Below, one piece after another: positions 2,894 to 35,940 of a DNA stretch of 64,000 bases. The position numbers and the translations under genes are program-made. Every line of letters starts with the position of its first letter. Position 1 is the first letter of the stretch. The stretch lies in contig NZ_JACBAZ010000001.1 of the NCBI RefSeq assembly GCF_013391475.1, positions 702,377-766,376 of the forward strand, given 5' to 3'. The notes under the pieces are model-generated. The model saw nothing but the letters and a program-made list of their open reading frames with translations, made no database searches and was not told where the DNA came from. Source of the stretch: Oceaniferula marina. Its GTDB lineage: Bacteria > Verrucomicrobiota > Verrucomicrobiia > Verrucomicrobiales > Akkermansiaceae.

Positions 2894-2911
2894 GTCCCGC
2901 CTATCCGTGAC
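2894..2911. promoter_or_regulatory. Operator palindrome, GH36-like gene
   Basis: GTCCCG-CCTATC-CGTGAC is one copy of the 18-bp inverted repeat GTCACG-N6-CGTGAC, with one mismatch in the left arm. It lies 58 nt upstream of the GH36-like start, which fits a regulator-binding site in its promoter. Confidence 0.75.
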
Positions 2912-2930
2912 AACAACGCCCTGTGCCCGA

Positions 2931-3194
2931 TCAACCAGCATTCAAATAGTAACGTTGAATATCACGAAAAATATTATCCCTCCGGCGACGGGCAACCTCC
3001 ACATCTTTTGTTTTTAGTGAGAATCTTCTACGCTCGGAGGTTCCATCACCGTGATGAATCGTTATATTACACCACCAAATTTCTCCATTGATCCAAATAT
3101 GATGATTCCGGTTTTTTCCCATGGTCTTCGTTGCTAATTTACTTGTTCTCATAATGATTTGATTTGGATAACCGAGGACGACAACAATCATCAT
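2931..3194 (-). CDS. Small basic protein, resembles integrase arm-binding domain
   Basis: Up to 87 residues; internal Met codons allow shorter forms of about 72 or 63 residues. The C-terminal part reads W-I-N-G-E-I-W-W-C, a Gly/Asp turn, then RRRFSLKTKDVEVARRRRD. That pattern, a three-strand sheet followed by a helix with a basic Lys-Thr-Lys turn, resembles the N-terminal arm-type DNA-binding domain of tyrosine recombinases. No catalytic domain follows, so it is either a recombinase remnant or a free-standing small DNA-binding protein. It sits alone between a sulfatase gene and the GH36-like gene. A degenerate operator copy lies 65 nt upstream. The resemblance is by eye only, and the ORF could be spurious. 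Confidence 0.45.
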   Translation of the reverse strand: MMIVVVLGYPNQIIMRTSKLATKTMGKNRNHHIWINGEIWWCNITIHHGDGTSERRRFSLKTKDVEVARRRRDNIFRDIQRYYLNAG

Positions 3195-3258
3195 ACATTA
3201 TGATCATCGAACTAACCTCGTTCATTTATATCCTGCCCTAAAAGGGCCAACCAAGAAA

Positions 3259-3276
3259 GTCACGAACATCAGGGAC
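3259..3276. promoter_or_regulatory. Degenerate operator copy
   Basis: GTCACG-AACATC-AGGGAC keeps the left arm and the ATC spacer end of the regional palindrome. The right arm has two mismatches. It lies upstream of the small ORF at 2931-3194 and downstream of the sulfatase stop, so it may be a weak or decayed site. Confidence 0.4.
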
Positions 3277-3405
3277 TCTGAGCCTTATCTTCGATGTAAC
3301 GAGGCTCAATCAAGCAAACAAGGATCCATCAAGACAGACAAACACATATTCATCCTATAGTGATCATCCGCGCAACGGATTTCACTACCGACCACAGAGA
3401 CCCTT

Positions 3406-4827
3406 TTACTTCTTTGGCTGCTCAAGCACCTCTGCCGCCAATCTAAATTTTTTATGTTCGGACATCGTATGTAGCTCATCCATCTGCTTATACAGCTCAG
3501 CGACCAACTCTGGATATTTTTTTGATAAATCCTTTGTTTCTGAAAGGTCGTTATCCAAGTCATAAAGTTCCATTTTCGGCTTCCTTTGAGTATTGGTGTT
3601 CAGACACACCAATTTCCACTTCCCCTGACGAATGGCACGCTTTCCCTTCCCTTCATAAAATTCCCAGTAAAGGTTTTTATGTTGGGCCTGCTTCCCCCGC
3701 CCCAACAAAGTGGGCACGATGGAAATCCCATCCGTATCTAGCTGAGGCTCGGCTCCTGCAAGCTCTCGCAATGTTGGCGAAATATCCCAGAATGCGGAAA
3801 CATGGTCCGTTGAACTACCTGCTTTGATCTTTCCTGGCCACCATGCAATCATCGGGACACGCACCCCTCCCTCATACAGATCCCGCTTACCACCACGAAG
3901 TTCACCGCTGGAATGAAAACTATCCCGACGATGGCCACCTTCCTGCATCGCCCCATTGTCACTGGCAAACATTACCAGAGTATTCTCCGCAAGCCCTAAT
4001 TCATCGAGCTTCTTCAAAATCAACCCTACATTGTGATCCATATAAGAAACCATCGCCGCATAGGTTGTTTTCGGTTCACGCTCCCACGAGTAGTGTTGGT
4101 GTTCCTTGGAATCCAGAACTTTTTCTTTAAGGATCGGGCGATATTTTGCCTTCCATTCTTCTTTGGCGCGCAAACTGGCGTGAGGCAACTGAAAGGCTAA
4201 ATGCAAAAAGAATGGCCCATCTTTCTGACGCTCAAGATACTGCAAGGCTTCATGAATCACATTCTCACTACTGTATTGGTCACCAGCATGCTGGGTATTA
4301 TTTGGATATTGAACTCTCTGAGTGTTTCTCCAAAGGTAGGGAGGATAATACCAGTGAGCTGCGGTGTGTGAAGTAAACCCAAAAAAATAATCAAATCCCT
4401 TTTTCTTCAACAACAAAGCATCATCCGTGTTGCAGCCCAAACCAGATTTACCAATCAAGGCAGTGTGATAGCCTGCCTTTTGAAGCGCACTCGGGAAGAT
4501 TTGATCCTGAGGGTCAAGGCGCATCTGCAAATACCCATTTCCGCGCACGTAAGTATTCCCGGAATGCTTCCCTTGCAACATACAACTCCTGGAAGGTCCA
4601 CAGACAGTACTACCTGAATAGTGCTGGCTAAACACCATACCTTCTACCGCCATTTTATCAATGTTAGGCGTCTGAATGACCTTCTGCCCATAACAACCTA
4701 GATCTCCATACCCGAGATCGTCAGCTAGGATATAGATTACATTAGGCTTTTTCTGATCCTTTTCAGAGCCCCATCCAAAGCTACTAAAAGCTAAAAAAAC
4801 AAACCCCGCCATCCATACCAACTTCAT
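3406..4827 (-). CDS. Secreted sulfatase (formylglycine type, S1)
   Basis: Hydrolyses sulfate esters, most likely on a polysaccharide. In the long frame starting at 4887 (493 residues), the metal-binding pair is in LADDLGYGDLGCYG. The CxPSR signature CGPSR begins at Cys96, the residue oxidised to formylglycine, and FASDNGAM carries the second metal pair. I chose the start at 4827 because MKLVWMAGFVFLAFSSFGWG is a clear signal peptide; the ATGs at 4842 and 4887 are alternatives. The start is then 91 nt from the operator at 4918, in line with other genes of the region. It is divergent from the GH2 gene and shares that operator. The substrate subfamily cannot be fixed by eye. Confidence 0.88.
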   Translation of the reverse strand: MKLVWMAGFVFLAFSSFGWGSEKDQKKPNVIYILADDLGYGDLGCYGQKVIQTPNIDKMAVEGMVFSQHYSGSTVCGPSRSCMLQGKHSGNTYVRGNGYLQMRLDPQDQIFPSALQKAGYHTALIGKSGLGCNTDDALLLKKKGFDYFFGFTSHTAAHWYYPPYLWRNTQRVQYPNNTQHAGDQYSSENVIHEALQYLERQKDGPFFLHLAFQLPHASLRAKEEWKAKYRPILKEKVLDSKEHQHYSWEREPKTTYAAMVSYMDHNVGLILKKLDELGLAENTLVMFASDNGAMQEGGHRRDSFHSSGELRGGKRDLYEGGVRVPMIAWWPGKIKAGSSTDHVSAFWDISPTLRELAGAEPQLDTDGISIVPTLLGRGKQAQHKNLYWEFYEGKGKRAIRQGKWKLVCLNTNTQRKPKMELYDLDNDLSETKDLSKKYPELVAELYKQMDELHTMSEHKKFRLAAEVLEQPKK

Positions 4828-4917
4828 AAATTCTTTGCTCATTCCTAATTTCGTTAAATGTCTCACCTCTCTAAACCAAAGGTTCAATGATCATACAATA
4901 ACCCCCAATCTTGTTGA

Positions 4918-4935
4918 GTCACGCTCATCCGTGAC
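4918..4935. promoter_or_regulatory. Operator palindrome between sulfatase and GH2 genes
   Basis: GTCACG-CTCATC-CGTGAC with perfect arms lies in the spacer between the divergent sulfatase (minus) and GH2 (plus, start 5026) genes, so one site could serve both. Confidence 0.8.
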
Positions 4936-5025: not shown

Positions 5026-7023
5026 ATGGCTCAAGCACTCTCAATCCAGACCAAACTCTCCCTAGCCCTTCTTTGGCTTGGATCATGCATCTCACCGATT
5101 CAGGCTAGCCCGGACCTAGGAGACCACCCTAATTTCGCACATGCCATGCAGGTTATCACTCGAAAAGTTGATAACTTCCCCGTTGTTTTTCACTACGGAC
5201 AAGTTCGCCCCGATTTTAATGACACCTCCAAAAATCCCCACCGCTCCAGGCTCGACCTCAACGGGGAATGGTTATTTCGATTTGACCCCCAGTCCATAGG
5301 AGAAAAACAACGATGGTTTTCGACAAAGACCCATCTTAAAGACTGGCATCAAGTCAACGTCCCACACTCATGGGACTCCATGCCCGGAGGAAAGTATTGG
5401 GATTGGCAAAACCGAAGTGTGACCAATCCACCGCATTACAACGGGTCAGCATGGTATCGGCGCTCATTCGAGTGGACACCCCAGCAAAATAAACGGCAAA
5501 GAATCGTCTTTCTCGGCGTCCAACAGCGAGCCCGGGTTTACTTAAATAACTCAGCAATCGCGATGCATGAAGGTGGCGGCGCTCCTTTTTCTATCGATAT
5601 TTCCGAGCGCCTGAAACCTGGAACCAATACGCTCGCGCTCAAAGTCACTCGCCTGCCTAATTTCAAACTCCATAAAGATGGCAAAAAATGGGATGAAATC
5701 CACTACACCCACACCCTACACCCCAAAGCCCCCGATTGTTGGCCTTACGCTGGTATTCTTAGAGATGTCTACCTCAGCGAAGAAGCGGCAATCAGCATTC
5801 GTAAAACGCAGATCTGCACTCAAAATGACAAATTACAAACGACCGTCATCATCAGCAATAACGGCAAACAAACATCCAGCGTCTGGGTCAAACTTAGATG
5901 CTCAGCCCTCGCAGTGCCCCGCCACACAAGCCATGAGCTTTTACGTCTAGCTCCAGGCCAAACAAGAGTGGTAAAGCTATCCCTCTCCTTATCAACGGAT
6001 GCCAAATCCTGGAGCCCTCAATCCCCCCACCTCTACAAAGCCCATATTACTCTTCACCGAGAGAATGGCCAAGCGTTCGACCAACTGGTATCCACATTCG
6101 GCATTCGAAAGTTCACTACTTCGGGACCTCAGTTCACACTTAACCAGCAAGCTATTTTCCTCAAAGGCATCTCCCTTTATGAAGAAAACCACCACCGGGG
6201 AGGCGCCATTACCCGTAAAGATCATGAAAAACTCTTTCAGTTAGCCCGACAATCCAACTCAAACTTCATCAGGATGCACGTCACGCAACGAGCTCCCTAC
6301 GCCTATCAACTGGCAGACCAGCAGGGATTTCTGATTTGTGCGGAATGGGCAGGCTTCTGGTATACGAAAGAAGCCATGGCTCAACAAAGCCAAGACAAAC
6401 AATCCATCTACCAAACCCTAGGTCGCTGCGCCGTATGGGACCTCATGAACCATCCCTCGGTCGTCCTTTGGGGGCTACATAATGAAGCACACCAGTTCTG
6501 CCCGGAATATGAAACATTTGTAAAAACAGGTCGCTCGTTGGTCCAAGAACTCGATCAGGAAAAACGCCCGATCACCTGGGCTGCCTGGCATCCAACCAAA
6601 GGCACGCCACATTTCGAGCATGCCGATGCCGTTGGTTTCAACGAATACCGTGGTGCGATGGACCCGTTTGAAGATCTTGCCCCGGACCTCAACAAAGCAA
6701 TCAAAAGCAACCCGAGCAAACCCCTCATCATCATGGAAAACGGAGCTTGGTCCAAACGAGGCGAGAGAGGACCCGTTACCCAGAAAAGCACCGAAGACTG
6801 GCAAGCCGACCTCCTCAAAAGACAGTGGAACGTGCTCACGCAATACACACCTGCATTTTCTGGCTACACCTACTGGCTACTTAGCGATTACCGATCACGT
6901 AAAACCTACACGGGAAACAGAAGATCCAATGGCTACTCCCGTATGGGCCTCTACGATGAATTTCACCAACCCAAACTCGTCAGTGAGGTGTTTCGGGATT
7001 TAATAAACCCACTCAAAAAATAG
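5026..7023 (+). CDS. Secreted GH2 glycoside hydrolase
   Basis: 665 residues with a signal peptide (about 1-28, cut near PIQASP). Order: a sugar-binding jelly-roll domain (about 75-255, with NVPHSWD at 111-117 and a conserved AWYRRSF), an immunoglobulin-like domain (about 258-360), then the catalytic barrel. The barrel begins with LKGISLYEENH near 379-389. The acid/base is Glu487 in LHNEAH, after HPSVVLWG, and the likely nucleophile is Glu571 in LIIMENGAW. Known GH2 activities include beta-galactosidase, beta-glucuronidase and beta-mannosidase; I cannot choose among them. It is short for GH2 because no extra C-terminal domains follow the barrel. It is divergently transcribed from the sulfatase and shares the operator at 4918-4935. 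Confidence 0.87.
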   Translation: MAQALSIQTKLSLALLWLGSCISPIQASPDLGDHPNFAHAMQVITRKVDNFPVVFHYGQVRPDFNDTSKNPHRSRLDLNGEWLFRFDPQSIGEKQRWFSTKTHLKDWHQVNVPHSWDSMPGGKYWDWQNRSVTNPPHYNGSAWYRRSFEWTPQQNKRQRIVFLGVQQRARVYLNNSAIAMHEGGGAPFSIDISERLKPGTNTLALKVTRLPNFKLHKDGKKWDEIHYTHTLHPKAPDCWPYAGILRDVYLSEEAAISIRKTQICTQNDKLQTTVIISNNGKQTSSVWVKLRCSALAVPRHTSHELLRLAPGQTRVVKLSLSLSTDAKSWSPQSPHLYKAHITLHRENGQAFDQLVSTFGIRKFTTSGPQFTLNQQAIFLKGISLYEENHHRGGAITRKDHEKLFQLARQSNSNFIRMHVTQRAPYAYQLADQQGFLICAEWAGFWYTKEAMAQQSQDKQSIYQTLGRCAVWDLMNHPSVVLWGLHNEAHQFCPEYETFVKTGRSLVQELDQEKRPITWAAWHPTKGTPHFEHADAVGFNEYRGAMDPFEDLAPDLNKAIKSNPSKPLIIMENGAWSKRGERGPVTQKSTEDWQADLLKRQWNVLTQYTPAFSGYTYWLLSDYRSRKTYTGNRRSNGYSRMGLYDEFHQPKLVSEVFRDLINPLKK

Positions 7024-7060: not shown

Positions 7061-7170
7061 GTGCCGCTTTTATCTGTTTAAAGAGCCAAGGAATCAGCCC
7101 CAGCTCATTTCACGCATGCTTCGATGAACCATGCCCCACACTTGGGATACTCAGTGTATTTCCAGTTACT
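7061..7170 (-). pseudogene. Remnant of esterase C-terminus (34084-34917 type)
   Basis: Read on the minus strand, this stretch encodes SNWKYTEYP, then after a frame change VGHGSSKHA, an in-frame TGA where the intact gene has TGG, and finally LIPWLFKQ followed by Lys/Ala residues. This matches residues about 241-275 of the esterase at 34084-34917, including its catalytic His motif (SNWKYTEYPGVGHGSSKHAW, LIPWLFKQ). DNA identity is also high, for example around GCTTCGATGA. The remnant abuts the stop codon of the fusion esterase at 7169, so an older esterase 3' end was left behind when the present gene end was formed. Confidence 0.8.
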
Positions 7171-9487
7171 ACTTTGACTGCGAGAAGATCCAATCGATCA
7201 GATTCGTACCAGGAGTAGTCATACTACCATAAGCAGCACCATAAGGAGCAGTAATAGGATTAGCCCAAGCGGGTGTTGTCACTGCATGCCCAACACCATC
7301 AAATTCCGTATAGGTCCAGTTTGGGTGCCCGGCTGCGAGCATGGCGTCATGCATCGCTCTGGATCCTAGATACGACACAACGGTATCGCTATTTCCATGA
7401 AAATTCCAGATCGGAACACCTACCAAAGTGGCTGCCTCCGTCGGATCCCCTCCTCCAGCCATCGGAGCCAGACAAGCGAACCGTGAAGGATCGCGCATCA
7501 CACAGTCCCATGCTCCAAATCCGCCCATGGACTGCCCAGTGACATAAATACGATCCGGATCGATATTGAACTCCTGCTCAAGAGCATCAATAATTTCGTA
7601 AACCATTGTCATCGAATCGGTAATCGGAGTCGCGCTGAGATCATATTGTCCAGCTCCCCATGGCGTCGCGGCCCAGTTGCTTTGACTCTGAGGAGTGATC
7701 ACAAAGGCGGGGTATTGAGCCCTAACTTCTTTACTGGACAACTCCTTCATTGCCTCAATGGACCGACTGGTATTGTCCGTTCCCGTTCCGCCAGCGCCGT
7801 GAAAAGCGATGACCAGTGGATACTCCACATTTGGGTCGTAAACATTCGGTTTGAGTATCCGGTAAGGCAGGCTGCCCGTACCGCTGCTGTGAAGTCGTGC
7901 TTCAAAATTGCCTAGTGGCTCAGAGCCGATTGTAAAGAAATCACGTAGCACCTCCCCTTGTACGTAGAAAACGTAGTCTCCATTGGCATCGATGGTTGAG
8001 TTCTGGTCAATGCTTGTCGAAAGAAACGGGGCCACTCCATCGGGAGAGTGCGGAGCCTCACTCCACCAGGCGTGCTCCCCGCCTAGATTCGTTTGCCTCC
8101 TCGGAAAGAGCAGCGACGGATAAAGTGTTCTCACAGTAAGTTTACAGAGGTGTTGATCACCGACCTCGAAGTCGACAATTTCCACTTCGATATCTGCCGC
8201 CGCTAGTGCGCTACCGATATAGAAAGCCAGGTTTCCATTTGTGCTAGCTGCCTGCGTTCCCGCATCCGCAGTCAACATCCGCCCGTCAGGATATTGGTCT
8301 CCGCCCGCACCGGAAGTGCCGTTATGCCTTGCGAAGCTCACCGTTTGACCACCGCCATCGCCGCCATAGATAAATTCAACAAGAAAGCCATAAGCCTTGG
8401 TTGGAACCAATGGAATCGACGCATTCAGGTCGAAGTGGACGTATAGCCCTCCGTGCGTCAGTCCTGCTGGTATATCAAAATACTCACTATACAGAGATGT
8501 CATGCTTGTTCCATCTAGGGCGTCATCGTCAGAGAGACCATCGCCCTTTACCCATTCTGTAGAATCATTCGAATCACCCGTTGGATTCCATTCAAAAATA
8601 GTCAGCTTAAACTTATTCTTATACTTCATGTTCCAACCATTGCCTTGAACTAATGATAGCGATTTCATATCGAACGCAGTCGCCGGCTGAAAGCTCATCC
8701 CGTACCCGCTACCGTTAGAAACGCCTTGAGTCGTGTTAGTTATATTATAAGAAATCTGCGCACTATCGCCTAGCGCCTCAAGGGGACTCATACGCAGATT
8801 ACCAACACTCGGAGGAACGTAGATAGTGTTCTTACTCAAGTAAAAACATAGATCAGCATTGCCTCCTTGGTCTGTATTCGCGGTGGTCGTAGTGCCGATC
8901 TGCCGACCACCGGCATAAAGGTCACTTGTATGACTTCTCCGGTAAGTGATGTTATCAGACCCATGTCCAGAATAAAGTAGTTCAATCGTAAAACCATAGG
9001 CAGTGTTTGCCGCCAAAGTAACAGGACTACTCAAATTGAAGTGAATATAATTCAGCGCAGGCATGCTACCAAGTGGGGTCTCAAAATCCTCACTGTACAA
9101 CAACGTCATGCCCGTGCCATTGAGAGGATCACCATCTGTAGTTCCATCGCCCTCTTTCCACTCTACCACATCCTCACCATCGCTGGAAGGATTCCATGTG
9201 AACAGTTTAAGTCTAAGATAAGTTCCAGCATTATAGCCCTGTTTAGTGGCCTTAACCACAGTGAGTCGTGCCAAATCAAACCCAGTATCTCCTGTTTTGA
9301 AAGTTTGTCCAGCAGCGACACCAATACCATAACTTTGCTGCGTAGTCGCCGCACTTGCGGGATGCGAGATAGGAGTACCTGCACCGGTTGGCTCAGTAGT
9401 CTCGGCGATGATCGTATTAGCGCCTAAAGCAAACGTGCAGCTCAACGAAAACAAGAGTGATCTAATTACGATTTGTTTGAGTTTCAT
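7169..9487 (-). CDS. Secreted esterase with two N-terminal copies of an unnamed domain
   Basis: 772 residues with a signal peptide (about 1-22). Residues about 52-218 and 261-426 are two copies of a beta-rich domain that also forms the protein at 9934-10641. Shared marks are GQTF or its equivalent, an Ile/Leu-Phe-x-Trp strand, WxxGDG, a LYSExF segment, an NTAYGF-like strand and a final LAFYI/LCFYL. From about 530 follows an alpha/beta-hydrolase: oxyanion region AFHGAGG, nucleophile Ser653 in VTGQSMGG, Asp701 in FHGNSDTVV and His734 in DGVGHA. Similar enzymes are PHB-depolymerase-like or CE1-like carbohydrate esterases. The likely role is removal of acyl groups from the glycan (inference). Operator copies lie upstream at 9621 and beyond. 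Confidence 0.85.
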   Translation of the reverse strand: MKLKQIVIRSLLFSLSCTFALGANTIIAETTEPTGAGTPISHPASAATTQQSYGIGVAAGQTFKTGDTGFDLARLTVVKATKQGYNAGTYLRLKLFTWNPSSDGEDVVEWKEGDGTTDGDPLNGTGMTLLYSEDFETPLGSMPALNYIHFNLSSPVTLAANTAYGFTIELLYSGHGSDNITYRRSHTSDLYAGGRQIGTTTTANTDQGGNADLCFYLSKNTIYVPPSVGNLRMSPLEALGDSAQISYNITNTTQGVSNGSGYGMSFQPATAFDMKSLSLVQGNGWNMKYKNKFKLTIFEWNPTGDSNDSTEWVKGDGLSDDDALDGTSMTSLYSEYFDIPAGLTHGGLYVHFDLNASIPLVPTKAYGFLVEFIYGGDGGGQTVSFARHNGTSGAGGDQYPDGRMLTADAGTQAASTNGNLAFYIGSALAAADIEVEIVDFEVGDQHLCKLTVRTLYPSLLFPRRQTNLGGEHAWWSEAPHSPDGVAPFLSTSIDQNSTIDANGDYVFYVQGEVLRDFFTIGSEPLGNFEARLHSSGTGSLPYRILKPNVYDPNVEYPLVIAFHGAGGTGTDNTSRSIEAMKELSSKEVRAQYPAFVITPQSQSNWAATPWGAGQYDLSATPITDSMTMVYEIIDALEQEFNIDPDRIYVTGQSMGGFGAWDCVMRDPSRFACLAPMAGGGDPTEAATLVGVPIWNFHGNSDTVVSYLGSRAMHDAMLAAGHPNWTYTEFDGVGHAVTTPAWANPITAPYGAAYGSMTTPGTNLIDWIFSQSK

Positions 9488-9620
9488 ATGATTGATAGAA
9501 GTTCGTTCTTGAGGGGAGGATATTACCTCATCAGCCTGTGCATAGGGCTTTGGAGCCAGGCATCTGGATATCGATTCGTTACAGCGATGAAATCATTGAC
9601 GGCTTGAAGGGAAATAGATA

Positions 9621-9638
9621 GTCACGAGTACGCGGGAC
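9621..9638. promoter_or_regulatory. Operator palindrome, esterase gene
   Basis: GTCACG-AGTACG-CGGGAC has one mismatch in the right arm. It lies 134 nt upstream of the esterase start at 9487 and is the first of three copies in the divergent spacer 9488-9933. Confidence 0.65.
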
Positions 9639-9731
9639 TCGCCGTGATGATGATGACCCCGACCCTGAGCACCTCTGGTTTCACCTTTCTGAAAATTACG
9701 GGCTACCCTGCCAAAAAGGACTGGCCAGCAT

Positions 9732-9749: not shown

Positions 9750-9861
9750 TTCAAAAAAACTAGCCATCTGTATTATAAGCTTGAGTTACACAGTGCGGGG
9801 TGACAATTTTTTAGTGTGGGCTGGCATGATGACATCACACACACAACAACAATCCATTTGT

Positions 9862-26933: not shown

Positions 26934-29378
26934 CTACTCTGTGATGTATGCTTCTACTTTAAAGAAACATCTGTCCAAATTCTCGGGTATAGCAAATGTC
27001 ACTTCTGTCGAATCACCAGAGGAGGGCATAATCGGGTCCATTGATACTTCTTGCCACAGCCCTGTAAGGTTTTCATTATACAAGATTCTATATCGACGCT
27101 TCGAAAGGTCATCGTTACTCGAAAAACGGATCGTTACATCATCTTCGAGGGATCTGGAAGATTCAAGCACCCCGAAAAAGCTTTTGTTGTCTGTCGGCAT
27201 CGTCCCGGCAACAAATTCATCATAGTCCAGTTGACCGTCATTATCAGAATCGACTGTTCCATCAACTACGGTGTTGGCTCCAAAGTGGACAATTTCCCAA
27301 CCATCCCAGATTTCATCGCCGTCATCATCATGACTGTCATAGTCGTAACTAGCGCTAATCGTCATGGCGGAAGAAATCGCGTAAGGCACCGTAAATGTTG
27401 TCACATCATTTGCAGAATCAGCAAAAGCCCCACCGTTTTCACTGACCCAGGAATAGAAGTGTTTACCTGCCGGACCAGGGTCGGCTGCGACATCGATGAT
27501 GCGCCCACCGGTGTAGACTCCATCCCCAGTTCCGTTCTCTACCGTAAGCAGGTAGGATGGGTCGAGCGGTCCGGACTCCTTAACAATATCTATATAGCAC
27601 GCTCCAAAGTCCTGAATCAAGAATACGTCAGGCTCAGGCTCAGTCTCTCCATTCATCCAGACCTGAAGATCATAGTCTCCAGCATCTACGGTGATTGATA
27701 TCGATGTCGATGTCGCAGTAGGGTCATCAACAAGCCATTCCCGCACATGATCTCCGAGTTGAACCCGAGCTTTTTCAATCTTCAACTCTTGCGGAGCCTC
27801 CTTCGGGTATTGACGTAAGGTAATGGTATACGTTCCTGGTTCCATCACTCGAACCGCCCACTTCTCACTTTGCCCGTTGTCACGAGTACGATCAATATGA
27901 GATTTCGCATATGGGATATTGCTGCCTGTGTACCAATCCATCGCAGTCATACTCGTATCCGGAAATGCAGTGGCTCCAATCTGATTTCGGCTGAGTGTCG
28001 CAGCCTGTTCAGCTTCACTGACTGGAAGCGAATCCCAAAATGCGTTGTAGAGCGCCGTCAGATCCGCTTTAGCCTGTAGATATTCTGCCTCATTGACCTC
28101 CAACGGATGACCTTCAGGCAACTTCAGAAGATTCAGCTCACAACGTGGGTCAGCAAGCTTATCAAACAATTTACTGCTCCCATCCAGACGCCAGCGACTG
28201 GTCTTAACAGACATCGAATGCCACTTTTTGGCTTCACTCGTACGCGGAGTCTGCGTAATTATATGTCGATCCGCTGGATAAGTAGCAGGGTCCCCAGTCA
28301 GTAATGGCCTTAAGCTAATGCCATCCATATCTGCCGGAATAGGGATGTTGCAATAATCCAAAATAGTTGGCGCAAGATCAATCAATCCAGCGAGATGAGT
28401 GTCCACTCCACGAGGAAGATTTGGGTGCGACTGCGTAGTGGTACCAACATGGTCTGGCATTCGAATCATGAACGGGATCTGGGTACGCGCATCTTGTGAA
28501 GTTTCCTTGTCTGCGGGATCATAGTGTGGCGCTCCACGATCAAACATGCCTTGATCTGATGCAAATATGACAATGGTATTATCCGCGAGTCCTTCCGTAT
28601 CAAGAAAAGCCAATATCTCGCCTACATTATCATCCAAATTCTCAATAATGGGATTAATGGCCTTATCACCTGACACAGGGTTATTAAGATCAGGCCCCGA
28701 GTAAGGCCCATGAACTGCAGGCGTCGACAAGTAGCAGAAGAAGGGCTTACCATCATTAAGATCCTGAAGACCTCCAATCCAAGCCATCGCCGCATCAAAC
28801 AACACATCGGTACTAAAGCCCGTGGGTTGAACCTGCACACCGTTGTGGAAGTAAACTCCATCGTGGTGCGTGTTGCCATAATAATCCTCTAACTGGCCAA
28901 GACTTCCACCATTCAGAACAAAGGTTTCATCAAATCCCCGATCTGCTGGACGATGCGGGTAAGAGTAGCCCAAATGCCATTTACCGTAAGCAGCGGTATG
29001 ATAATTATGGCCTTTCATTATCTCAGCAAGTGTATCATGGTCCTTATGCATAATGGAACGACCATTCAGTGTATTAAAAACACCCGTGCGGATACACTGC
29101 TTACCGGTCAGCGCAATCGAACGACTCGGCGAACAGTAACTCGCAGCATAAAAATCCTGAAAATCCACACCTTGTGACGCAAGCGAATCAATATGTGGCG
29201 TGCTAAGCGTAATGGGGTTCCCATCATCATCGTCTAGCCAAGGTGTAAACCCGTGACAGGATAATTCGTAGTAACTCTGGTTGTCCGAAAAGATAAACAG
29301 CACATTTGGCGAGCCTTGGGCCTGGATGATATGCGTAAGAGCTATCATCATTAGGGGAATTATTTGTAAACACTTCAT
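26934..29378 (-). CDS. Multidomain secreted sulfatase with calcium-binding C-terminus
   Basis: About 814 residues from the ATG at 29378 (signal MKCLQIIPLMMIALTHIIQA); the frame extends to 29432. The sulfatase domain is the paralogue of 25169: FSDNQSYYELSCHG, CSPSR (Cys100 in the long form), FASDQGMFDRGAPH and the same WYTGSNIPYAKSHIDR tail. It carries an extra insert after the first metal motif (LDDDDGNP). Beyond residue 600 come a segment resembling InlB_B-type repeats (VENGTGDGVYTGG, FYSWVSENGG), two Asp-rich loops of thrombospondin-type-3 or EF-like character (DDDGDEIWDGWE, DSDNDGQLDYDEF) and a final beta domain ending DRCFFKVEAYI. The added part probably gives calcium-dependent surface or matrix binding. 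Confidence 0.85.
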   Translation of the reverse strand: MKCLQIIPLMMIALTHIIQAQGSPNVLFIFSDNQSYYELSCHGFTPWLDDDDGNPITLSTPHIDSLASQGVDFQDFYAASYCSPSRSIALTGKQCIRTGVFNTLNGRSIMHKDHDTLAEIMKGHNYHTAAYGKWHLGYSYPHRPADRGFDETFVLNGGSLGQLEDYYGNTHHDGVYFHNGVQVQPTGFSTDVLFDAAMAWIGGLQDLNDGKPFFCYLSTPAVHGPYSGPDLNNPVSGDKAINPIIENLDDNVGEILAFLDTEGLADNTIVIFASDQGMFDRGAPHYDPADKETSQDARTQIPFMIRMPDHVGTTTQSHPNLPRGVDTHLAGLIDLAPTILDYCNIPIPADMDGISLRPLLTGDPATYPADRHIITQTPRTSEAKKWHSMSVKTSRWRLDGSSKLFDKLADPRCELNLLKLPEGHPLEVNEAEYLQAKADLTALYNAFWDSLPVSEAEQAATLSRNQIGATAFPDTSMTAMDWYTGSNIPYAKSHIDRTRDNGQSEKWAVRVMEPGTYTITLRQYPKEAPQELKIEKARVQLGDHVREWLVDDPTATSTSISITVDAGDYDLQVWMNGETEPEPDVFLIQDFGACYIDIVKESGPLDPSYLLTVENGTGDGVYTGGRIIDVAADPGPAGKHFYSWVSENGGAFADSANDVTTFTVPYAISSAMTISASYDYDSHDDDGDEIWDGWEIVHFGANTVVDGTVDSDNDGQLDYDEFVAGTMPTDNKSFFGVLESSRSLEDDVTIRFSSNDDLSKRRYRILYNENLTGLWQEVSMDPIMPSSGDSTEVTFAIPENLDRCFFKVEAYITE

Positions 29379-29530
29379 ATTAGGTATTGGTCTGAATAGT
29401 AAAGAACAGAGCTTTTTTCGTGCTCGGGACATCTGGGATAGGAATCATTGGAATTGGTCCATCCTACAGACGTCCACAGTCGATCTTCCGCTGTATGGAT
29501 GAAGTATAGCCAGTTGTTGTTGTTTGTATT

Positions 29531-29548
29531 GTCACGAGTACACGCCAC
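29531..29548. promoter_or_regulatory. Operator copy (degenerate right arm)
   Basis: GTCACG-AGTACA-CGCCAC has an intact left arm and two mismatches in the right arm. It lies 153 nt upstream of the ATG at 29378 (99 nt from the longer-frame start) and would serve the two SDNQ sulfatases. Confidence 0.6.
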
Positions 29549-29640: not shown

Positions 29641-32532
29641 TTAGCGTAAGTCCCCTGCTACGTTCTTTTTCTCCCCTGCAGCCAGTTTTAATGACACTTT
29701 TTTACCCGCGAAGGTAACCGTGCATGGATTACCACGCTTGGACAATATCATCGCGTCGGTCAGCTTTCCCTCTTTCCACTTCATAGACACCTCGAAGCCA
29801 CCACGAGCAACCAAGCCAGTAACTGAGCCTTCAGACCATGCCTTGGGCAATGCCGGGAGTAGCTTGATCTCGCCAGTGTGGCTCTGCAACAACATCTCAG
29901 CCACACCACTGGGGTAACCGTAGTTACAGTCCTGAACCTGTCCCTGGCTTCCCATCAAGTTCACATTGAAGCCACGAATGCGATTCAAGTTATTCACCCA
30001 CAACAGTGCGCGCTCGCCCATGCCGAAACGGGCGAAAAAATTGACGTAATACAAATTACTCCATGTCACACGGCGCCCACCACGGTCGGAGTCGGTGCGA
30101 ATCTCAAGTGTTTTACGCCCCGCCTCTAGCATATCCGGTGCATTATCGACATGATACTGGTTACCGGGGTAGAACCCCCACATGTGTGAAATATGCCGAT
30201 GGTCCGGCTCCGATGATTCATAATCTTTACTCCACTCCTGAATGGTTCCATCCTTCCCAATTTTCGTCTGAGCCAGGCGGGGAAGCTTATCCGCCACCTC
30301 CTTAGTCAGCTCGTCTTCGATCCCGAGCACCTTTGAAGCCTCCAGAAAGTCAGTAAAGATCTGCCAGATGATCTGCTGATCCATGGCACAGCCCATATCT
30401 AAAACACCCCAACCACGCGTTCCCTTTCCTCCTCCCGGAGTAACAGAGAAAGCGGTTTCCGGCGAATAATCAGGACCGCCAACGAGTTTACCCGAGCGTG
30501 GATCCTTAACCAACCAATCAAGGCAGAATAAGGTGTGATCTTTAATGATTCCATAGCCTTCGGTCTTCAAATAGTCTTTATCACCCGCAAATCGATAATG
30601 CTCCATCACGTGAGTCGCATTCCATGCTCCACCCATTGCCCACATTGAAGCTGGTGGAGTGGGAGGATAGGCAGTCATATAAATCCCGTGCAGCAATGGT
30701 AAAAACACGCCACGACAGCCAAACATCTCAGAGGCAACTCTCTGACCTCGTGGTCGGGCTAGTTTGAGTAAATCAAACAACGGCTTATGCATCTCCGTCA
30801 TATTGGTGACTTCAGCGGACCAGTATGACATCTGCACATTAATATCATGGTGATAATCCGAGTTCCACGAAGGCTTTAATTCAGAATTCCAAATACCACG
30901 CAAGTTCGCAGCCATCGACCCTGGGCGTGAAGACGTGATCAAAAGGTAGCGCCCCATATGAAACAGCTGCATGGTCAAATAAGGGTCATACTCGTCTTCA
31001 GCCATCTCGCGTGATCGTTTGACGCGCTCATCCGTCGGCATGTCATTCTTGAGATTCGGACCAAGCTGGATATCAACGCGTCCAAAAATTTCCTGGTGCG
31101 CTTCCACCGAATCAGCTTTTGCCTTTTCAACTCCCTTTGCCTTGAGCTTTCCCAGTAATTGAATACACGTTGCCTGTAGATCCGTGGTCGATGGTTTAAA
31201 TGGATTCGCCGCATTAAAATTCGTAGCCCCCGCTATATAAACGATCATCTCCTTTGCGTTACGAACCGAAAGCACACCGTCCTTAGAAACAACCTCTCCA
31301 CCTTTCGTCGTCGCCAATGCGACCGATTGATAACTCGTTGCGATATCGCTAGGCTTATCGCCATGAGCCTTACCGGAAAGAGTGATCATGTTTGTCCCAT
31401 GACTTTGAGTGACTGGTTTCTGGTGCTCGAAATGCATCGGTCTATTGAACTGCATATCGGTAGAGATGGTTCCTTCTCCGGTAGCGCGCATCCGCAAAAT
31501 CATTACATCCTCATCGTCAGCAATAAACACTTCTCGCTCGTAAGTCGTGCCTTCAAGCTCAAAACGAACCGTCGTTAAGCCGGTCTCCATATCCAATTTA
31601 CGATGATAGTTTTCAATCGATTCCTTCTTAGGTTTTTTACCAAAATCGTACTTAAACAACAACTCCCCCAAGGGCTGATAAGCACCAACGTCATACTTAT
31701 GTAGCAAATGCTCACGTGAATAGGCATGAGCCTCCGGTTCCTGCCCGGCGAAGATCATCTCGCGAATTTTAGAGATCTCCTTCTGCTTGCTAGGATAAGG
31801 GTTTTCTACAATTTCCTTTGAGATATTCGGAGGCGTCCACAACGTATCGTGATTAAACTGAACAACATCCTCGGTTACACCACCAAAAACCATGGCTCCG
31901 AAAGATCCGTTCCCAATTGGTAATGCCTCTAACCAAGTTCCGGCAGGATAGCGAAACCATATGACCGTTGCCCGATCAAAAACCGTCTCACAGCGCTTAA
32001 ACACGGCTCTTCCAATCGACTGTGTGAGCTTGGTCTGCAGTTTGGGTAACTTCTTTGCAGACTTGCCACCTTGGTTCGGCTTGCCGCCCTTTGTTGGCTT
32101 CCCGTCTTTTTTAGGCTTTGCATCTTTTTTAGGCTTTCCCTTCTTTGGAGCCAACTTATCGACAGCCTCAAGTGCCGCTTTATATTCAGGATCTAAATCA
32201 GCCAACAAACCTTTCAGTTTTGCGTATTCCGTATCGTATTGTTTTTGCAGTTTTACATAGGCTTCATCTGCCTTGAGCTTCTTGAATATGGCAGCTCGGG
32301 CGTCCTTATCGAGTCCCGTCACTAATCCGGCAGAGATTTGTTCCTCACGTAAATTTCGCTTCAATCTGGTGGCTTCTAGATGTACCATCGCCACCTCATC
32401 ATTGGTTTTATGCTTAGTTAGAGCGGCACTATATGCCTTATTCGCATTCTTCCTAGCATCAGTAATCGTCTGGGCTTGAACCTGCAGCAACACGCTGATA
32501 AGCAAAATAGGTATTAGTATTAGTTTTTTCAT
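29641..32532 (-). CDS. Secreted GH95 fucosidase-family enzyme with lysine-rich N-terminal extension
   Basis: 963 residues with a signal peptide (about 1-21). Residues 22-125 are charged and likely coiled coil. Residues 128-167 form a Lys/Gly/Pro-rich linker built from KPKKDG/KPTKGG-like units. The GH95 part starts near 190: EALPIGNGSFGAMVFGG and NHDTLW are standard family motifs. The active-site segment is SDYHHDINVQMSYW (558-571), where most fucosidases have Asn-x-Asn but this one has Asp563-Ile-Asn565. The acid region is SPETAF (Glu692) and the base region is EPDHRHISHMWGFYPG (Asp777). GH95 enzymes are inverting alpha-L-fucosidases or alpha-L-galactosidases. An operator lies 110 nt upstream. 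It is the best pointer to a fucose-containing substrate. Confidence 0.87.
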   Translation of the reverse strand: MKKLILIPILLISVLLQVQAQTITDARKNANKAYSAALTKHKTNDEVAMVHLEATRLKRNLREEQISAGLVTGLDKDARAAIFKKLKADEAYVKLQKQYDTEYAKLKGLLADLDPEYKAALEAVDKLAPKKGKPKKDAKPKKDGKPTKGGKPNQGGKSAKKLPKLQTKLTQSIGRAVFKRCETVFDRATVIWFRYPAGTWLEALPIGNGSFGAMVFGGVTEDVVQFNHDTLWTPPNISKEIVENPYPSKQKEISKIREMIFAGQEPEAHAYSREHLLHKYDVGAYQPLGELLFKYDFGKKPKKESIENYHRKLDMETGLTTVRFELEGTTYEREVFIADDEDVMILRMRATGEGTISTDMQFNRPMHFEHQKPVTQSHGTNMITLSGKAHGDKPSDIATSYQSVALATTKGGEVVSKDGVLSVRNAKEMIVYIAGATNFNAANPFKPSTTDLQATCIQLLGKLKAKGVEKAKADSVEAHQEIFGRVDIQLGPNLKNDMPTDERVKRSREMAEDEYDPYLTMQLFHMGRYLLITSSRPGSMAANLRGIWNSELKPSWNSDYHHDINVQMSYWSAEVTNMTEMHKPLFDLLKLARPRGQRVASEMFGCRGVFLPLLHGIYMTAYPPTPPASMWAMGGAWNATHVMEHYRFAGDKDYLKTEGYGIIKDHTLFCLDWLVKDPRSGKLVGGPDYSPETAFSVTPGGGKGTRGWGVLDMGCAMDQQIIWQIFTDFLEASKVLGIEDELTKEVADKLPRLAQTKIGKDGTIQEWSKDYESSEPDHRHISHMWGFYPGNQYHVDNAPDMLEAGRKTLEIRTDSDRGGRRVTWSNLYYVNFFARFGMGERALLWVNNLNRIRGFNVNLMGSQGQVQDCNYGYPSGVAEMLLQSHTGEIKLLPALPKAWSEGSVTGLVARGGFEVSMKWKEGKLTDAMILSKRGNPCTVTFAGKKVSLKLAAGEKKNVAGDLR

Positions 32533-32641: not shown

Positions 32642-32659
32642 GTCACGCACATCCGTGAC
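32642..32659. promoter_or_regulatory. Operator palindrome, GH95 gene
   Basis: GTCACG-CACATC-CGTGAC has perfect arms and lies 110 nt upstream of the GH95 start at 32532, in the spacer after the SHD1-like mini-gene. Confidence 0.82.
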
Positions 32660-32793: not shown

Positions 32794-32979
32794 CTATTTT
32801 TCAGAGCTTGCCCAGGCACGGATATACTCCTGATCCAACTTGGAGAATCGTGAGACCGGAACATTTTCAAACACAACGCCATCCCTCCGCAATAGACTTA
32901 CCTCTACGCGTTGCGATACATACGTAATAGCCGCTTCGATCTGCTCCCCGTTTACACTCTTAAAAACACGATATTTCAA
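32794..32979 (-). CDS. SHD1-like mini-protein
   Basis: 61 residues with no signal peptide. The sequence follows the pattern of SLA1-homology-domain-1-like modules common in Planctomycetes and Verrucomicrobiota: an early strand with VNGEQIEA, a second strand ending VSLLRRDG, then VPVSRFSKLDQEYIRAW, where most members have L-S-x-x-D-x-x-Y. Usually this module is attached to larger secreted proteins; here it stands alone. Its ATG at 32979 overlaps the upstream stop by four bases, so translation is coupled to the 32976-34067 protein. A protein-binding role is likely from the fold. Its partner is unknown, and without a signal peptide it would act in the cytoplasm unless the start is wrong. Confidence 0.7.
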   Translation of the reverse strand: MKYRVFKSVNGEQIEAAITYVSQRVEVSLLRRDGVVFENVPVSRFSKLDQEYIRAWASSEK

Positions 32980-34067
32980 GGAAGACTAGGCTTGGATACA
33001 GCATCTTTCCAGCGTTTCCAATCCTCCAGTTGCTCACTACGTTCAACGATTTTTCCATTCTCAACGGTATGAAGATAGGTTCGTCCACCTTTATCACTTT
33101 TGACAAGAAACGGTCCAAATGCAAAATGTGACCATTGGTATTCTTTAAAAATTTTAAGCAATGCCCTGGGCGCGAAATACCACTGGTTGGCTCCCCGCAA
33201 CTTAAACTCCTTATCCAAAGAGCGGGGGAAAAGTCCATCCCCGGCATTTCCGACGAAAAGAACAGGCTGATTCAGTTGGCTGAGTTCATCCAGTCCACAG
33301 TGGCCCCGAAAATGCTGCTCCCATTCCCGGATGTCAGAACTCTTCCCATTGGGAGGCTCCCCTTGATCAAACAACTTGAACGTAAATCCATAGTTGATGC
33401 AGCGTTCTCGCATTTTCTGATCAAACCCCGACTGCACATGCGCTTTATGAACACCTTTAAAATTAGCACCAAGGCCCTCACCATGCATCAAAACGGTCTT
33501 ACTTTTAAATGCATTATTCGTTTTTTGATTCAAGCGATCCATGGCATCCAAGATAGCGTCAAAATGCACCTGCCACTGGTCCGCTGTAGAAGCCTTCCCT
33601 CGAAGTGGATCATTTTCATCAAAACGACATGCCTTGACCATCCCGCCCAGACCTGCATCATCAATCGCATTATATGTCTTCGCCACTGCCGTTGCCCAAC
33701 TCTCCCGCTGGGACTCACGATCAAGACTCCACTTTCGGTGACTGATAACGATAGACAAAAAACGATCTCCTTGCTCATCTTTGATGCCTTTCAAGAATGC
33801 AACAAGCGGATCCTGCCCTTCCCTTGAAATAGGCACAGTAATCATATTCACCCCCATATCTTTTAACCGCACCACGTATTCTTTCGCGGCAATACCATAA
33901 AAAAGATCAGGCACCTCATGAATGCCCTGATCCTCCTTCGCCGCCTTTTGCTCAACACCAACAATAGGTTGATTAAAGTCGAGAGGCTTGGCTAGACAGG
34001 GCACAAGCACAGCCATGCCTGCTGCCATCCCGAGAACAATCTTCTTCATGAAGCCCCTTTTCATCAC
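32976..34067 (-). CDS. Secreted protein of unknown function, possible TIM-barrel
   Basis: 363 residues with a signal peptide (about 7-26, MKKIVLGMAAGMAVLVPCLA; the ATG at 34049 is an alternative start). Visible patterns are alternating strands and helices such as MGVNMITVPIS, RFLSIVISHRKWSL, GLGGMVKACRFDEND, KSKTVLMHGEGLG, YGFTFKLFDQGEPP and NQPVLFVGNAGD. This is compatible with a (beta/alpha)8 barrel, with acidic residues at strand ends (Asp/Glu in CRFDEND and MHGEG). I do not recognise a family. Its place between an esterase (17 nt upstream) and the SHD1-like gene (overlap), under a regional operator, suggests a polysaccharide-degrading or binding role, but this is context only. Confidence 0.7.
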   Translation of the reverse strand: MMKRGFMKKIVLGMAAGMAVLVPCLAKPLDFNQPIVGVEQKAAKEDQGIHEVPDLFYGIAAKEYVVRLKDMGVNMITVPISREGQDPLVAFLKGIKDEQGDRFLSIVISHRKWSLDRESQRESWATAVAKTYNAIDDAGLGGMVKACRFDENDPLRGKASTADQWQVHFDAILDAMDRLNQKTNNAFKSKTVLMHGEGLGANFKGVHKAHVQSGFDQKMRERCINYGFTFKLFDQGEPPNGKSSDIREWEQHFRGHCGLDELSQLNQPVLFVGNAGDGLFPRSLDKEFKLRGANQWYFAPRALLKIFKEYQWSHFAFGPFLVKSDKGGRTYLHTVENGKIVERSEQLEDWKRWKDAVSKPSLP

Positions 34068-34083
34068 ACCTTCAATACGTTGA

Positions 34084-34917
34084 TCATTGCGCTGCGCGCT
34101 TTTGTTTAAACAACCACGGAATCAAATCAGCTTCCTTCCAAGCGTGCTTCGATGAGCCATGTCCCACACCCGGATACTCCGTGTATTTCCAATTACTATT
34201 CCCTATGGCCTTCATCGCCTTGTCCATCTCCCGGGATGCCGCTGTCGGGACAACCGTGTCATTACCCCCGTGAAAACACCAAATCGGAAGATGCTCCAGT
34301 TTTTTAGCCTGGCTCAGGTCTCCAGCCCCGCACACGGGAATAGCAGCAGCGAAGAGATCAGGCTTACGCATAATAATATCCCATGTCCCGTAGCCTCCCA
34401 TCGACTGACCAGTCACATAAATCCTATCGGGATCAATACTGAATTCTTTCTGAAGCGACGCAATGATTGCAATAACAGTCTGAATCGGTTCTGAAATTTT
34501 AACATTCTTAAGCGAATAACATCCTTTCCCCCACGGAGTATTGGCCCACTGTTTTTTAGCCGGACACTGCGGAGTGATGATAAAAGCCGGATAATCCTTC
34601 CGAACTTTCTCCGTGGATAAAAACTGAAAGGCATCAATCGCCCGGCTTTTGTTATCCGTCCCCCTGCCCCATGCGCCGTGTAAGGCAACAATGAGTGGAT
34701 ATTTTTTTTCTTGAACATATGCATCAGGCTTCAGAATTCGATAGGGCAATGACAGCCCCCCCTCACTAAAGACCCTAGCCTCGATGTCCGCTTCTACTGC
34801 AATAACTTGGACAGGAGAGGCAACCATCAAGACAGCCACCAGTGAACGCAAGCCGGCGGCCACGGTTGAGGTTTTACGCAGGTGATGAAAAACGAATGAA
34901 ATACAGTGACTAAACAT
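34084..34917 (-). CDS. Secreted serine esterase (alpha/beta hydrolase)
   Basis: 277 residues. A hydrophobic N-terminal region (about 17-40) ending VQVIAVEA acts as signal peptide after an unusual start with two His. Catalytic triad: Ser172 in VTGQSMGGYG, Asp220 in FHGGNDTVVP and His253 in PGVGHGS; the oxyanion region is ALHGAWGRG. The same architecture, including LPYRILKP, PAFIITPQ and SIDPDRIYVTGQSMGG, forms the C-terminal part of the fusion esterase at 7169-9487, so the two are paralogues. A broken copy of its 3' end lies at 7061-7170. Related proteins are PHB-depolymerase-like and CE1-like esterases; deacylation of the glycan is likely. First gene of a three-gene unit with an operator 70 nt upstream. 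Confidence 0.85.
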   Translation of the reverse strand: MFSHCISFVFHHLRKTSTVAAGLRSLVAVLMVASPVQVIAVEADIEARVFSEGGLSLPYRILKPDAYVQEKKYPLIVALHGAWGRGTDNKSRAIDAFQFLSTEKVRKDYPAFIITPQCPAKKQWANTPWGKGCYSLKNVKISEPIQTVIAIIASLQKEFSIDPDRIYVTGQSMGGYGTWDIIMRKPDLFAAAIPVCGAGDLSQAKKLEHLPIWCFHGGNDTVVPTAASREMDKAMKAIGNSNWKYTEYPGVGHGSSKHAWKEADLIPWLFKQKRAAQ

Positions 34918-34986
34918 AAAAAGATCTGAAGTGACGTTTCACCTCAAGTCTACTCCCTATTACCACCATCAATCCACCACAAAAAT

Positions 34987-35004
34987 GTCACGAATATGCG
35001 TGAC
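34987..35004. promoter_or_regulatory. Operator palindrome, esterase/SHD1 unit
   Basis: GTCACG-AATATG-CGTGAC has perfect arms. It lies 70 nt upstream of the esterase start at 34917 and controls the esterase, barrel-like and SHD1-like genes. Confidence 0.82.
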
Positions 35005-35106
35005 GCTCTATGAAATTTCATCTTTGCACCATTTGATACCAAATCATGTATAAAACCAGCCTTTTCAACTTAGATTTCAACGTATTACAAGCGCCCCATG
35101 CACAAC

Positions 35107-35139
35107 AGAGGGTGTCGGCTGATTCGACCAACACCCTCT
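35107..35139 (-). terminator. Hairpin after PEP-CTERM gene
   Basis: A nine-pair perfect stem AGAGGGTGT / ACACCCTCT with a 15-base loop begins about 25 nt past the stop of the 35165 gene. The following bases (TGTTGTGC on the minus strand) are only moderately T-rich. It probably ends the PEP-CTERM transcript. Confidence 0.55.
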
Positions 35140-35164
35140 TGAAATCATAAAGAGTATGGCTTGA

Positions 35165-35812
35165 TTAGCGACGGCGACGGATCATCAATGTAAGCCCACC
35201 CAGTCCGAGCAGCGCAGTCGAACTTGGCTCGGGAACGAGTTCATAGCCGACACCATCATACCATGTGCGATTGTCGTTACCGGAAAAATCATCGATATAA
35301 ACATGAGCAAGCCCTGCCCCATCAACAGTGACTACGCCCAAGTTAATCTGATGAAGGTAACGAGCACCCCCGTCATCAACTAGAATGTCTGGATCAATGT
35401 CAGCATTGTCTGCCACCGGGGCATCATCCCATTCGTAGTCAGTCAGAGCTCCACTTACTAATCCCGCACGAATGTCCCATCGGTTGTTTCCTGTTGGTGC
35501 AGCACCTCCTCCGACCCAATAGTAGGCATAGAGATTGTAGTTACCTGCTGCTAGTCCAGAAATCGTGGTACGAATTTCAGGGGCAGAGGCAGCAGGTGCT
35601 ACACAATAAATATCCGGCCCCACATTTCCGTGAGATGTGCGAATATGCCAAGTTGTACCGTCCGCGGGTGCATTAGTACCGCTCGTAGTGACCGTAAGCG
35701 CAGATCCATCGGCCAGGGTGGTATTTGTAGGATCTGCATCTACATAAGTAATGGCAGCCTGTGCTGAGCCAGCGAGTATCACGCTTGCTAGTGGTAGTAG
35801 TGTCTTTTTCAT
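35165..35812 (-). CDS. PEP-CTERM protein of unknown function
   Basis: 215 residues with a signal peptide (MKKTLLPLASVILAGSAQA, cut before AITYV). The body is beta-rich and acidic, with strands such as TTWHIRTSH, YNLYAYYWVGG and LAHVYIDDFSG, as in secreted jelly-roll or discoidin-like domains. The C-terminus is LVPEPSSTALLGLGG followed by a short hydrophobic stretch and RRRR, nearly the same PEP-CTERM tail as the protein at 9934. An exosortase encoded elsewhere should process it. It is flanked by a perfect 18-bp operator 111 nt upstream and a hairpin downstream, so it is a single-gene unit of the regulon at the right border of the polysaccharide region. Confidence 0.82.
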   Translation of the reverse strand: MKKTLLPLASVILAGSAQAAITYVDADPTNTTLADGSALTVTTSGTNAPADGTTWHIRTSHGNVGPDIYCVAPAASAPEIRTTISGLAAGNYNLYAYYWVGGGAAPTGNNRWDIRAGLVSGALTDYEWDDAPVADNADIDPDILVDDGGARYLHQINLGVVTVDGAGLAHVYIDDFSGNDNRTWYDGVGYELVPEPSSTALLGLGGLTLMIRRRR

Positions 35813-35922
35813 TTTTATAATACGTTAGTTGTAAGTTTGAAGAACTTAGGCCGTTGAATACCAATTGTTCTCGCGTTGCCTATCTGGCAGACAAACCATA
35901 AAATAAAACAGCACTTCTCATA

Positions 35923-35940
35923 GTCACGGGTACCCGTGAC
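35923..35940. promoter_or_regulatory. Operator, perfect 18-bp palindrome
   Basis: GTCACG-GGTACC-CGTGAC is symmetric over all 18 bases and lies 111 nt upstream of the PEP-CTERM start at 35812. It is the rightmost copy of the motif. Confidence 0.82.

Follow-up and report, generated by a model that had tools for sequence, protein, structure and literature searches.

Oceaniferula marina, a member of the Akkermansiaceae (Verrucomicrobiota), carries a cluster of genes for sulfatases, esterases, and glycoside hydrolases (GHs) of the families GH95 and GH2. The cluster lies in, and just outside, the 64,000-nt stretch of DNA that was analyzed here (“the window,” C1:702377-766376, where C1 is contig NZ_JACBAZ010000001.1 of the 5.07-Mb genome; positions without a contig are those of the window). 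An initial annotation of the window described an 18-bp inverted repeat, GTCACG-N6-CGTGAC, that recurs between these genes, and proposed that a dimeric regulator acts through it on one catabolic programme. This dyad and its candidate regulator, a histidine kinase/response regulator pair encoded in the same cluster, are the subject of the following analysis.

The window contains eight exact and four degenerate copies of the dyad (Table 1). Every one of the twelve copies that had been read by eye was found again at its coordinate, including two with a single deviating arm base and three with symmetry over all 18 bases; the number of copies with both arms intact, originally given as seven, is eight. 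When up to two mismatches are allowed, the window has 13 matches, compared to 1.54 (SD 1.25) in shuffled sequences, and 13 was reached by none of 100 shuffles. The thirteenth match, at 14630, lies inside a sulfatase gene and scores 15.2 bits vs. 18.4–32.0 bits for the other sites, whose scores are favorable by construction, since the matrix was built from 13 cluster sites (the 12 of the window and C1:693630). A de novo dyad search of the intergenic DNA of C1:685001-740000, blind to the motif, returned as its top two words GTCCCG-N6 (11 sites, 0.12 expected, log10 P −18.0) and GTCACG-N6 (12 sites, 0.18 expected, log10 P −17.8), both of which belong to this motif; the best log10 P in five shuffles ranged from −3.3 to −6.7. 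As had been stated, the 12 copies are intergenic and none lies in the housekeeping half of the window, all of them ending at or before 35940. Site 9732 is counted as intergenic because the likely signal-peptide start of the adjacent gene, at ~9934, follows the dyad, which overlaps an over-long open reading frame (ORF) call (9730-10641). The distance to the transcription unit, formerly put at mostly 55–155 nt, is read here as 54–184 nt from the dyad to the likely start codon. Three dyads share a single intergenic gap of ~450 bp (9488-9933), which is flanked by an esterase gene and a PEP-CTERM gene.

The whole genome has nine exact dyads. All lie between C1:693630 and C1:738316, a span of 45 kb in a single sulfatase/GH95/GH2 cluster; the reversed control pattern is matched exactly nowhere in the genome. 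A similar density elsewhere had been named as an observation that would speak against a regulon; the confinement of the exact copies to the cluster speaks for it. The excess is limited to good copies, since the genome total at up to two mismatches (153) resembles that of the control (149). Eleven 1-mismatch sites are listed genome-wide, with ~11 expected by chance at equal base frequencies; two belong to the cluster, and the other nine score 3.8–12.7 bits and each lie inside an ORF no shorter than 90 codons. Two of these ORFs, 97 and 139 codons long, are possibly spurious.

The dyad also stands in a recurrent relation to the promoter. When the sites are read on the gene-sense strand, as defined by the downstream gene (14 site/strand rows in this genome), there is a tendency for a −10-like hexamer to begin 22 nt downstream of the dyad. 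The maximum over 54 offsets was reached by none of 5000 permutations, and there is no peak on the antisense strand. An exact TATNNT begins at offset 22 in 7 of the 14 rows, two of these being the duplicated PEP-CTERM promoters described below. TAnnnT begins at offset 22 or 23 in 8 of the 14 rows, and in 6 of 8 rows of a second genome, G600; among the other offset pairs shown (every third), 23/24, which overlaps the peak, has 8 of 22, and the remainder 0–3. A weak −35-like score peak begins directly after the dyad. Given this peak and the −10 at offset 22, the dyad tends to abut a weak −35, with its center predicted near −43.5, the position of a class II activator. This arrangement, a site next to or overlapping −35 with fixed spacing to −10, is present statistically, not at every site.

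Table 1. Dyads in O. marina and in the second genome, G600, and genes of the O. marina cluster.
Feature	Position	Strand	Match	−10-like hexamer (distance after dyad)	Context
Dyad	2894-2911		1 mismatch, 25.0 bits	TATGTT (22 nt)	Upstream of ORF 200-2836
Dyad	3259-3276		Degenerate, 2 mismatches, 21.6 bits	None at fixed distance	Doubtful
Dyad	4918-4935		Exact	TATGAT (22 nt) on − side; + side without good −10 at that distance	Between sulfatase (−) and GH2 gene (+)
Dyad	9621-9638		1 mismatch	None at fixed distance	Upstream of esterase 7169-9487
Dyad	9732-9749		Exact, fully symmetric	TATTAT (21 nt)	Upstream of PEP-CTERM gene
Dyad	9862-9879		Exact, fully symmetric	TATCTT (24 nt)	54 nt before likely start of PEP-CTERM gene
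Dyad	23438-23455		Exact	TATCTT (22 nt)	Upstream of ORF 19632-23354, then 18839-19642 and four sulfatases on same strand
Dyad	25134-25151		Exact	TTAAGT (22 nt)	Upstream of sulfatase 23604-25052
Dyad	29531-29548		2 mismatches, 18.4 bits	TATACT (exactly 22 nt)	Upstream of sulfatase 26934-29432
Dyad	32642-32659		Exact	TATGTT (22 nt)	Upstream of GH95 gene 29641-32532
Dyad	34987-35004		Exact	GGTAAT; no good −10 at fixed distance	Upstream of esterase 34084-34917
Dyad	35923-35940		Exact, fully symmetric	TATGGT (22 nt)	Upstream of PEP-CTERM gene 35165-35812
Dyad	C1:693630-693647		Exact (ninth)		Outside window, 8.7 kb upstream
G600 dyad	C35:470049		Exact		Before esterase gene directly after regulator gene; ~50 nt past regulator gene
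G600 dyad	C14:186481		Exact		Before sulfatase, then GH30 and GH35
G600 dyad	C14:173093		Exact		Before unknown ORF
G600 dyad	C21:92408		Exact		Before gene with sub-threshold PEP-CTERM match
G600 dyad	C60:197872		Exact		258 nt before GH3 gene on − side; ORF on + side also possible
G600 dyad	173008		Degenerate, by matrix		Before GH106
G600 dyad	164689		Degenerate, by matrix		~280 nt before GH78, inside small antisense ORF call judged spurious
G600 dyad	174233		Degenerate, by matrix		Before acetylesterase, then Verru_Chthon-like gene, GH3, GH95
PEP-CTERM gene	C1:692860-693606	−			Outside window, after ninth dyad
Response regulator gene	C1:693849-694520	−			Outside window; kinase/regulator pair 5.8 kb upstream
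Histidine kinase gene	C1:694546-696567	−			Outside window
GH2 gene	C1:696785-699904	−			Outside window
GH95 gene, 5′ part	1-151	−			Whole gene C1:700005-702527
Melibiase-like protein	200-2836	−	Weak, below Pfam cut-off
S1-type sulfatase	3406-4887	−			Likely start near 4842
GH2	5026-7023	+
Esterase-type hydrolase	7169-9487	−
PEP-CTERM protein	9934-10641	+			Start shifted to likely signal peptide
Sulfatase	10753-12336	+
Four sulfatase genes in a row	12360-18726	−
Unknown protein and Verru_Chthon cassette A-like protein	18839-23354	−	N-terminal match only, below cut-off
Three sulfatase genes	23604-29432	−
GH95	29641-32532	−
Unknown protein and esterase	32976-34917	−
PEP-CTERM protein	35165-35812	−

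The initial annotation placed the regulator elsewhere in the genome or in the small ORF 2931-3194. This ORF was rejected, as it has only a weak match to DUF6538 (E 0.0027, below cut-off). The likely regulator is the kinase/response regulator pair just outside the window, which is the sole transcription regulator among the cluster proteins scanned. The genome holds three GerE domains in all and no second kinase of the same kind at E 1e-10; an initial scan of genome_contigs with the single kinase as query gave no match. In the kinase, an N terminus resembling a signal peptide and a periplasmic part are followed by a transmembrane segment near residues 446–465 (hydrophobic stretch 443–473) and then by HisKA_3 (26.6 bits, cut-off 24) and HATPase domains (34.3 bits, cut-off 26.4); its Foldseek matches are DesK, DivL, VraS, and other kinases. 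The structural model of the periplasmic part (pLDDT 89) is a tandem beta-sandwich resembling tandem discoidin folds, and its PDB matches include the fucolectin 3cqo (1.3e-6), neuropilin b1b2, and the CBM32 pairs 7jfs and 7jnd. The sensor would thus consist of two discoidin/CBM32-like modules, an assignment that is good but not certain, because the sequence match to F5/8 type C is sub-threshold (E 0.0021, 18.6 bits, cut-off 28.2) and the TM-scores of the whole model are low (0.15–0.33; single modules, target TM 0.53–0.55, E 1e-3 to 5e-3).

By its domains, the partner protein is a response regulator of the NarL/FixJ (LuxR-type) family: Response_reg (61.8 bits) and GerE (46.0 bits) are both above cut-off, the best solved relatives are VraR and DevR, and the acceptor Asp and switch Lys are conserved (LMDI and LLK, judged by eye in an alignment with 30 homologues). 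The genes for the melibiase-like protein, GH95, GH2, kinase, and regulator are colinear and lie downstream of site 2894. The pair might be positively autoregulated via this site, but a promoter-like and a terminator-like site occur in or at the gap between the GH2 and kinase genes (with totals near those of shuffles), and the matrix scan found no operator in this gap.

Close orthologues of the pair were found in only one other genome, G600, from a different family. Identity is 70% for the regulator and 49–51% for the kinase, and the two regulators agree in the sequence HTxDTYIRRIYKKM of their recognition-helix region; the HisKA_3 match of the G600 kinase (17.9 bits) is below cut-off. Searches with the kinase detected none besides the window genome's own among 260 genomes of the family (E 1e-85), matches in G600 (51%), G592 (34%), and G545 (32%) among 384 genomes of the class, and G600 alone among 387 genomes of the phylum (E 1e-110), in overlapping samples with only a few candidates scored per genome. 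G600 has five exact dyads, with ~0.5 expected from base make-up, and three degenerate ones. Of its regions, C35 was fetched for the kinase, and C14, C21, and C60 for the motif. This count of eight leaves out other 1-mismatch sites, which lie within genes or score below 12 bits (C14:201243, C14:275332, C20, C21:130363, C63) or belong to the unfetched DNA (C4-C9, C51, C35:32813). The −10 offset recurs in G600 (offsets 22–24, none of 3000 permutations): besides the six sites with TAnnnT at 22 or 23, a seventh has it at 24, and the eighth has TATACC at 23.

Clustering, promoter spacing, gene linkage, and co-occurrence with an orthologous pair in a second genome make it very probable that a local two-component system has the dyad as its operator, through which it would activate the sulfated-polysaccharide cluster as a class II activator. 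Binding, phosphorylation, activation, and ligand we infer from sequence as follows. The membrane histidine kinase would read a saccharide outside the inner membrane via its two discoidin/CBM32-like modules and phosphorylate the response regulator encoded beside it. The phosphorylated dimer would bind a 22-bp site, WW-GTCACG-nATATn-CGTGAC-WW, and activate most transcription units of the cluster, which would be switched on when the sugar is present. That a dimeric regulator controls one catabolic programme, as first proposed, remains the best reading, with the density test over the genome in its favor.

Alternatively, another dimeric factor (LacI, TetR, GntR, or similar), with its gene elsewhere in the genome, might use the dyad as its operator, the adjacent pair being a coincidence. 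Distant members of the kinase family lack such dyads nearby, and the window itself holds a TetR gene (49186-49842). However, the latter sits in an efflux-pump neighborhood, 13 kb beyond the last dyad. The pair also occurs together with the dyads in two genomes from different families, each with a dyad directly downstream of the response regulator gene, so that this explanation is unlikely. Repression is a further alternative, in which the regulator blocks RNA polymerase until a saccharide releases it: an 18-bp dyad near −35 would suit a repressor too, and the phosphorylation state cannot be read from sequence. NarL-type regulators at such a position usually activate, though, and a dyad upstream of −35 and −10 rather than between or after them, at a near-fixed distance and next to a weak −35, is activator architecture, so that a repressor appears improbable. 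It is most implausible that the dyads have no regulatory function and represent a dispersed repeat, a hairpin, or an attachment site: although the copies are palindromic and the promoter pair C1:693630 and 35923 looks duplicated, the flanks of other sites differ, 12 copies lie upstream of genes, their distance to the −10 is nearly fixed, and the same dyad recurs with an orthologous regulator in another family.

Several observations weigh against a local class II system. Sites 3259, 9621, and 34987 and the + side of 4918 have no good −10 at the fixed distance, at 9732 and 9862 it lies at 21 and 24 nt, and two G600 sites are far (~260–280 nt) from their assigned gene. Sites with at most one mismatch are fewer in G600 (21) than matches of the reversed control (28), and a single sequence, repeated across different contigs, accounts for 7 of the 21. 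No convincing dyad cluster emerged from the de novo search in 29 regions around more distant kinases, nor in 8 named loci or 9 regions of P. mobilis and P. sulfatireligans. The proposed link between operator and regulator draws on two genomes, because a single orthologous pair was found.

The surveys of relatives delimit the distribution of the dyad further. Among 57 other relatives of O. marina, 47 have no exact dyad and 10 have one; none was found in five further genomes or in G592, and 80 named loci near distant kinase relatives contain no exact dyad and at most two 1-mismatch sites (L163). The best log10 P in the 29 kinase regions, −3.9 to −10.8, compares to −3.6 to −7.2 in 10 control stretches and −18 in the cluster itself. 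Six of the 29 were inspected singly by eye and the other 23 judged by score alone; the candidates rejected by eye look like a tandem 7-mer (G331), tRNA genes (G083a), repeated hairpins (G090b and G083b), or scattered chance matches (G133a and G071). In P. mobilis and P. sulfatireligans, a single region (C90, −6.8) is slightly above its shuffles. In 3.38 Mb of background from other genomes, with some locus overlap, six matrix matches reach at least 16 bits, two of them in one region, G090a, where one stands 18 nt after a regulator gene. Two genomes that encode related pairs have the sequence GTCACGCGNACGCGTGGC 18 nt downstream of the regulator gene (L097:1547, G090; G099 region, position 21448). 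The G099 sequence, which resembles the G090a match and has the same place, scores 14.2 bits and may serve as a lead only.

The kinase family itself is widespread: at E 1e-20, 211 of 386 genomes from the order have a match; besides the query, listed relatives in the order are 23–33% identical, and those in other genomes up to 35%. All 31 kinases above 100 bits in fetched regions (own included) have a regulator nearby on the same strand, and 77 of the 80 named kinase loci hold a regulator match. Single genomes (e.g., G164, G052, and G146) have up to 29 first-look candidates, of which at most three were scored. A description of such a large kinase sensor family was not found in the literature search. 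A general association of the family with sulfatases was rejected for lack of enrichment (a sulfatase match in 7 of 29 kinase regions vs. 4 of 10 control stretches). It is conceivable, if rather doubtful, that Verrucomicrobiota and allies possess their own control of saccharide clusters, in which many paralogous pairs of tandem-discoidin kinases and LuxR-type regulators, each with a compact class II dyad, form a counterpart, built from other parts, to the hybrid two-component systems (HTCS) of Bacteroidetes and have moved between families together with their operator sets.

As for the substrate, the fucoidan suggested by the initial annotation is not demonstrated: the gene content comprises GH95, GH2, sulfatases, and esterases, with no GH29 among the proteins scanned, and rhamnosidases of GH78 and GH106 seem to belong to the orthologous regulon in G600. 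At each edge of the regulon lies a PEP-CTERM gene (35165-35940 and C1:692860-693647); the two have very similar dyad promoters and look duplicated. Farther out than the latter gene, GH43 and GH92 genes have no operator by matrix scan. The Verru_Chthon cassette A-like protein and its small partner (18839-23354) sit within the sulfatase run. In G600, a dyad site precedes a related gene (31% identity), again with a small neighbor (C14:175435-179749), but two copies on C35 of that genome, which have slightly higher similarity, lack a dyad. Upstream of the cluster, at C1:672286-678001 (L017), a protein of ECF-like size with a sigma-70 region 2 match is encoded amid PEP-CTERM genes.

Consumption of sulfated methyl pentoses has been described for marine Verrucomicrobiota (PMC8857213), and in the passages of the literature searched we met neither an operator nor an assigned regulator for a cluster of this kind from them. 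The operator, promoter geometry, and candidate pair make regulon, inducer, and exchange between lineages directly testable, and a defined operator provides an anchor for reading those of the many related kinase/regulator pairs. Several known systems share single elements with the one proposed here. The Desulfovibrio ModE site, CGGTCACG-N14-CGTGACCG, has the same half-site letters, but a spacer of 14 instead of 6 and molybdate genes as targets (PMC545781). In Pontiella agarivorans, histidine kinase/response regulator pairs with the same Pfam domains (PF07730, PF02518, PF00072) are found near glycoside hydrolase and sulfatase genes, though the relevant passages of that report give no operator, regulon, or sensor fold (PMC10880615). 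HTCS and SusR of Bacteroidetes likewise exert local control over polysaccharide clusters with a periplasmic saccharide sensor, and bind direct repeats (PMC3878776). The HTCS is a single polypeptide with an AraC-type domain, whereas the system described here would combine a separate kinase with a LuxR-type regulator, a compact inverted repeat, and a discoidin-like sensor. The closest geometry is that of UvrY/SirA, the NarL/LuxR-type regulator of the BarA-UvrY(SirA)/GacS-GacA systems, which recognizes an 18-bp inverted repeat of the same 6-N6-6 form, TGTAAG-N6-CTTACA (PMC4682653). The letters of the half-site differ, however, the UvrY/SirA site lies far upstream instead of abutting −35, and its targets are csrB/C instead of a catabolic cluster. 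On the NCBIfam model NF007018 (UvrY/SirA/GacA equivalog), the regulator scores 91.5 bits, below the cut-off of 280. The lux box is 20 bp long, with a sequence other than the GTCACG dyad. It is centered at −42.5 (PMC3376562), close to the predicted position of the dyad, and is likewise bound by a LuxR-type DNA-binding domain, which is joined there to a quorum-sensing ligand domain and here to a receiver domain. Judged by its sequence, the system would thus work like a UvrY-type or LuxR-type activator, and its regulator is a NarL-family member that is neither a UvrY equivalog nor an HTCS.

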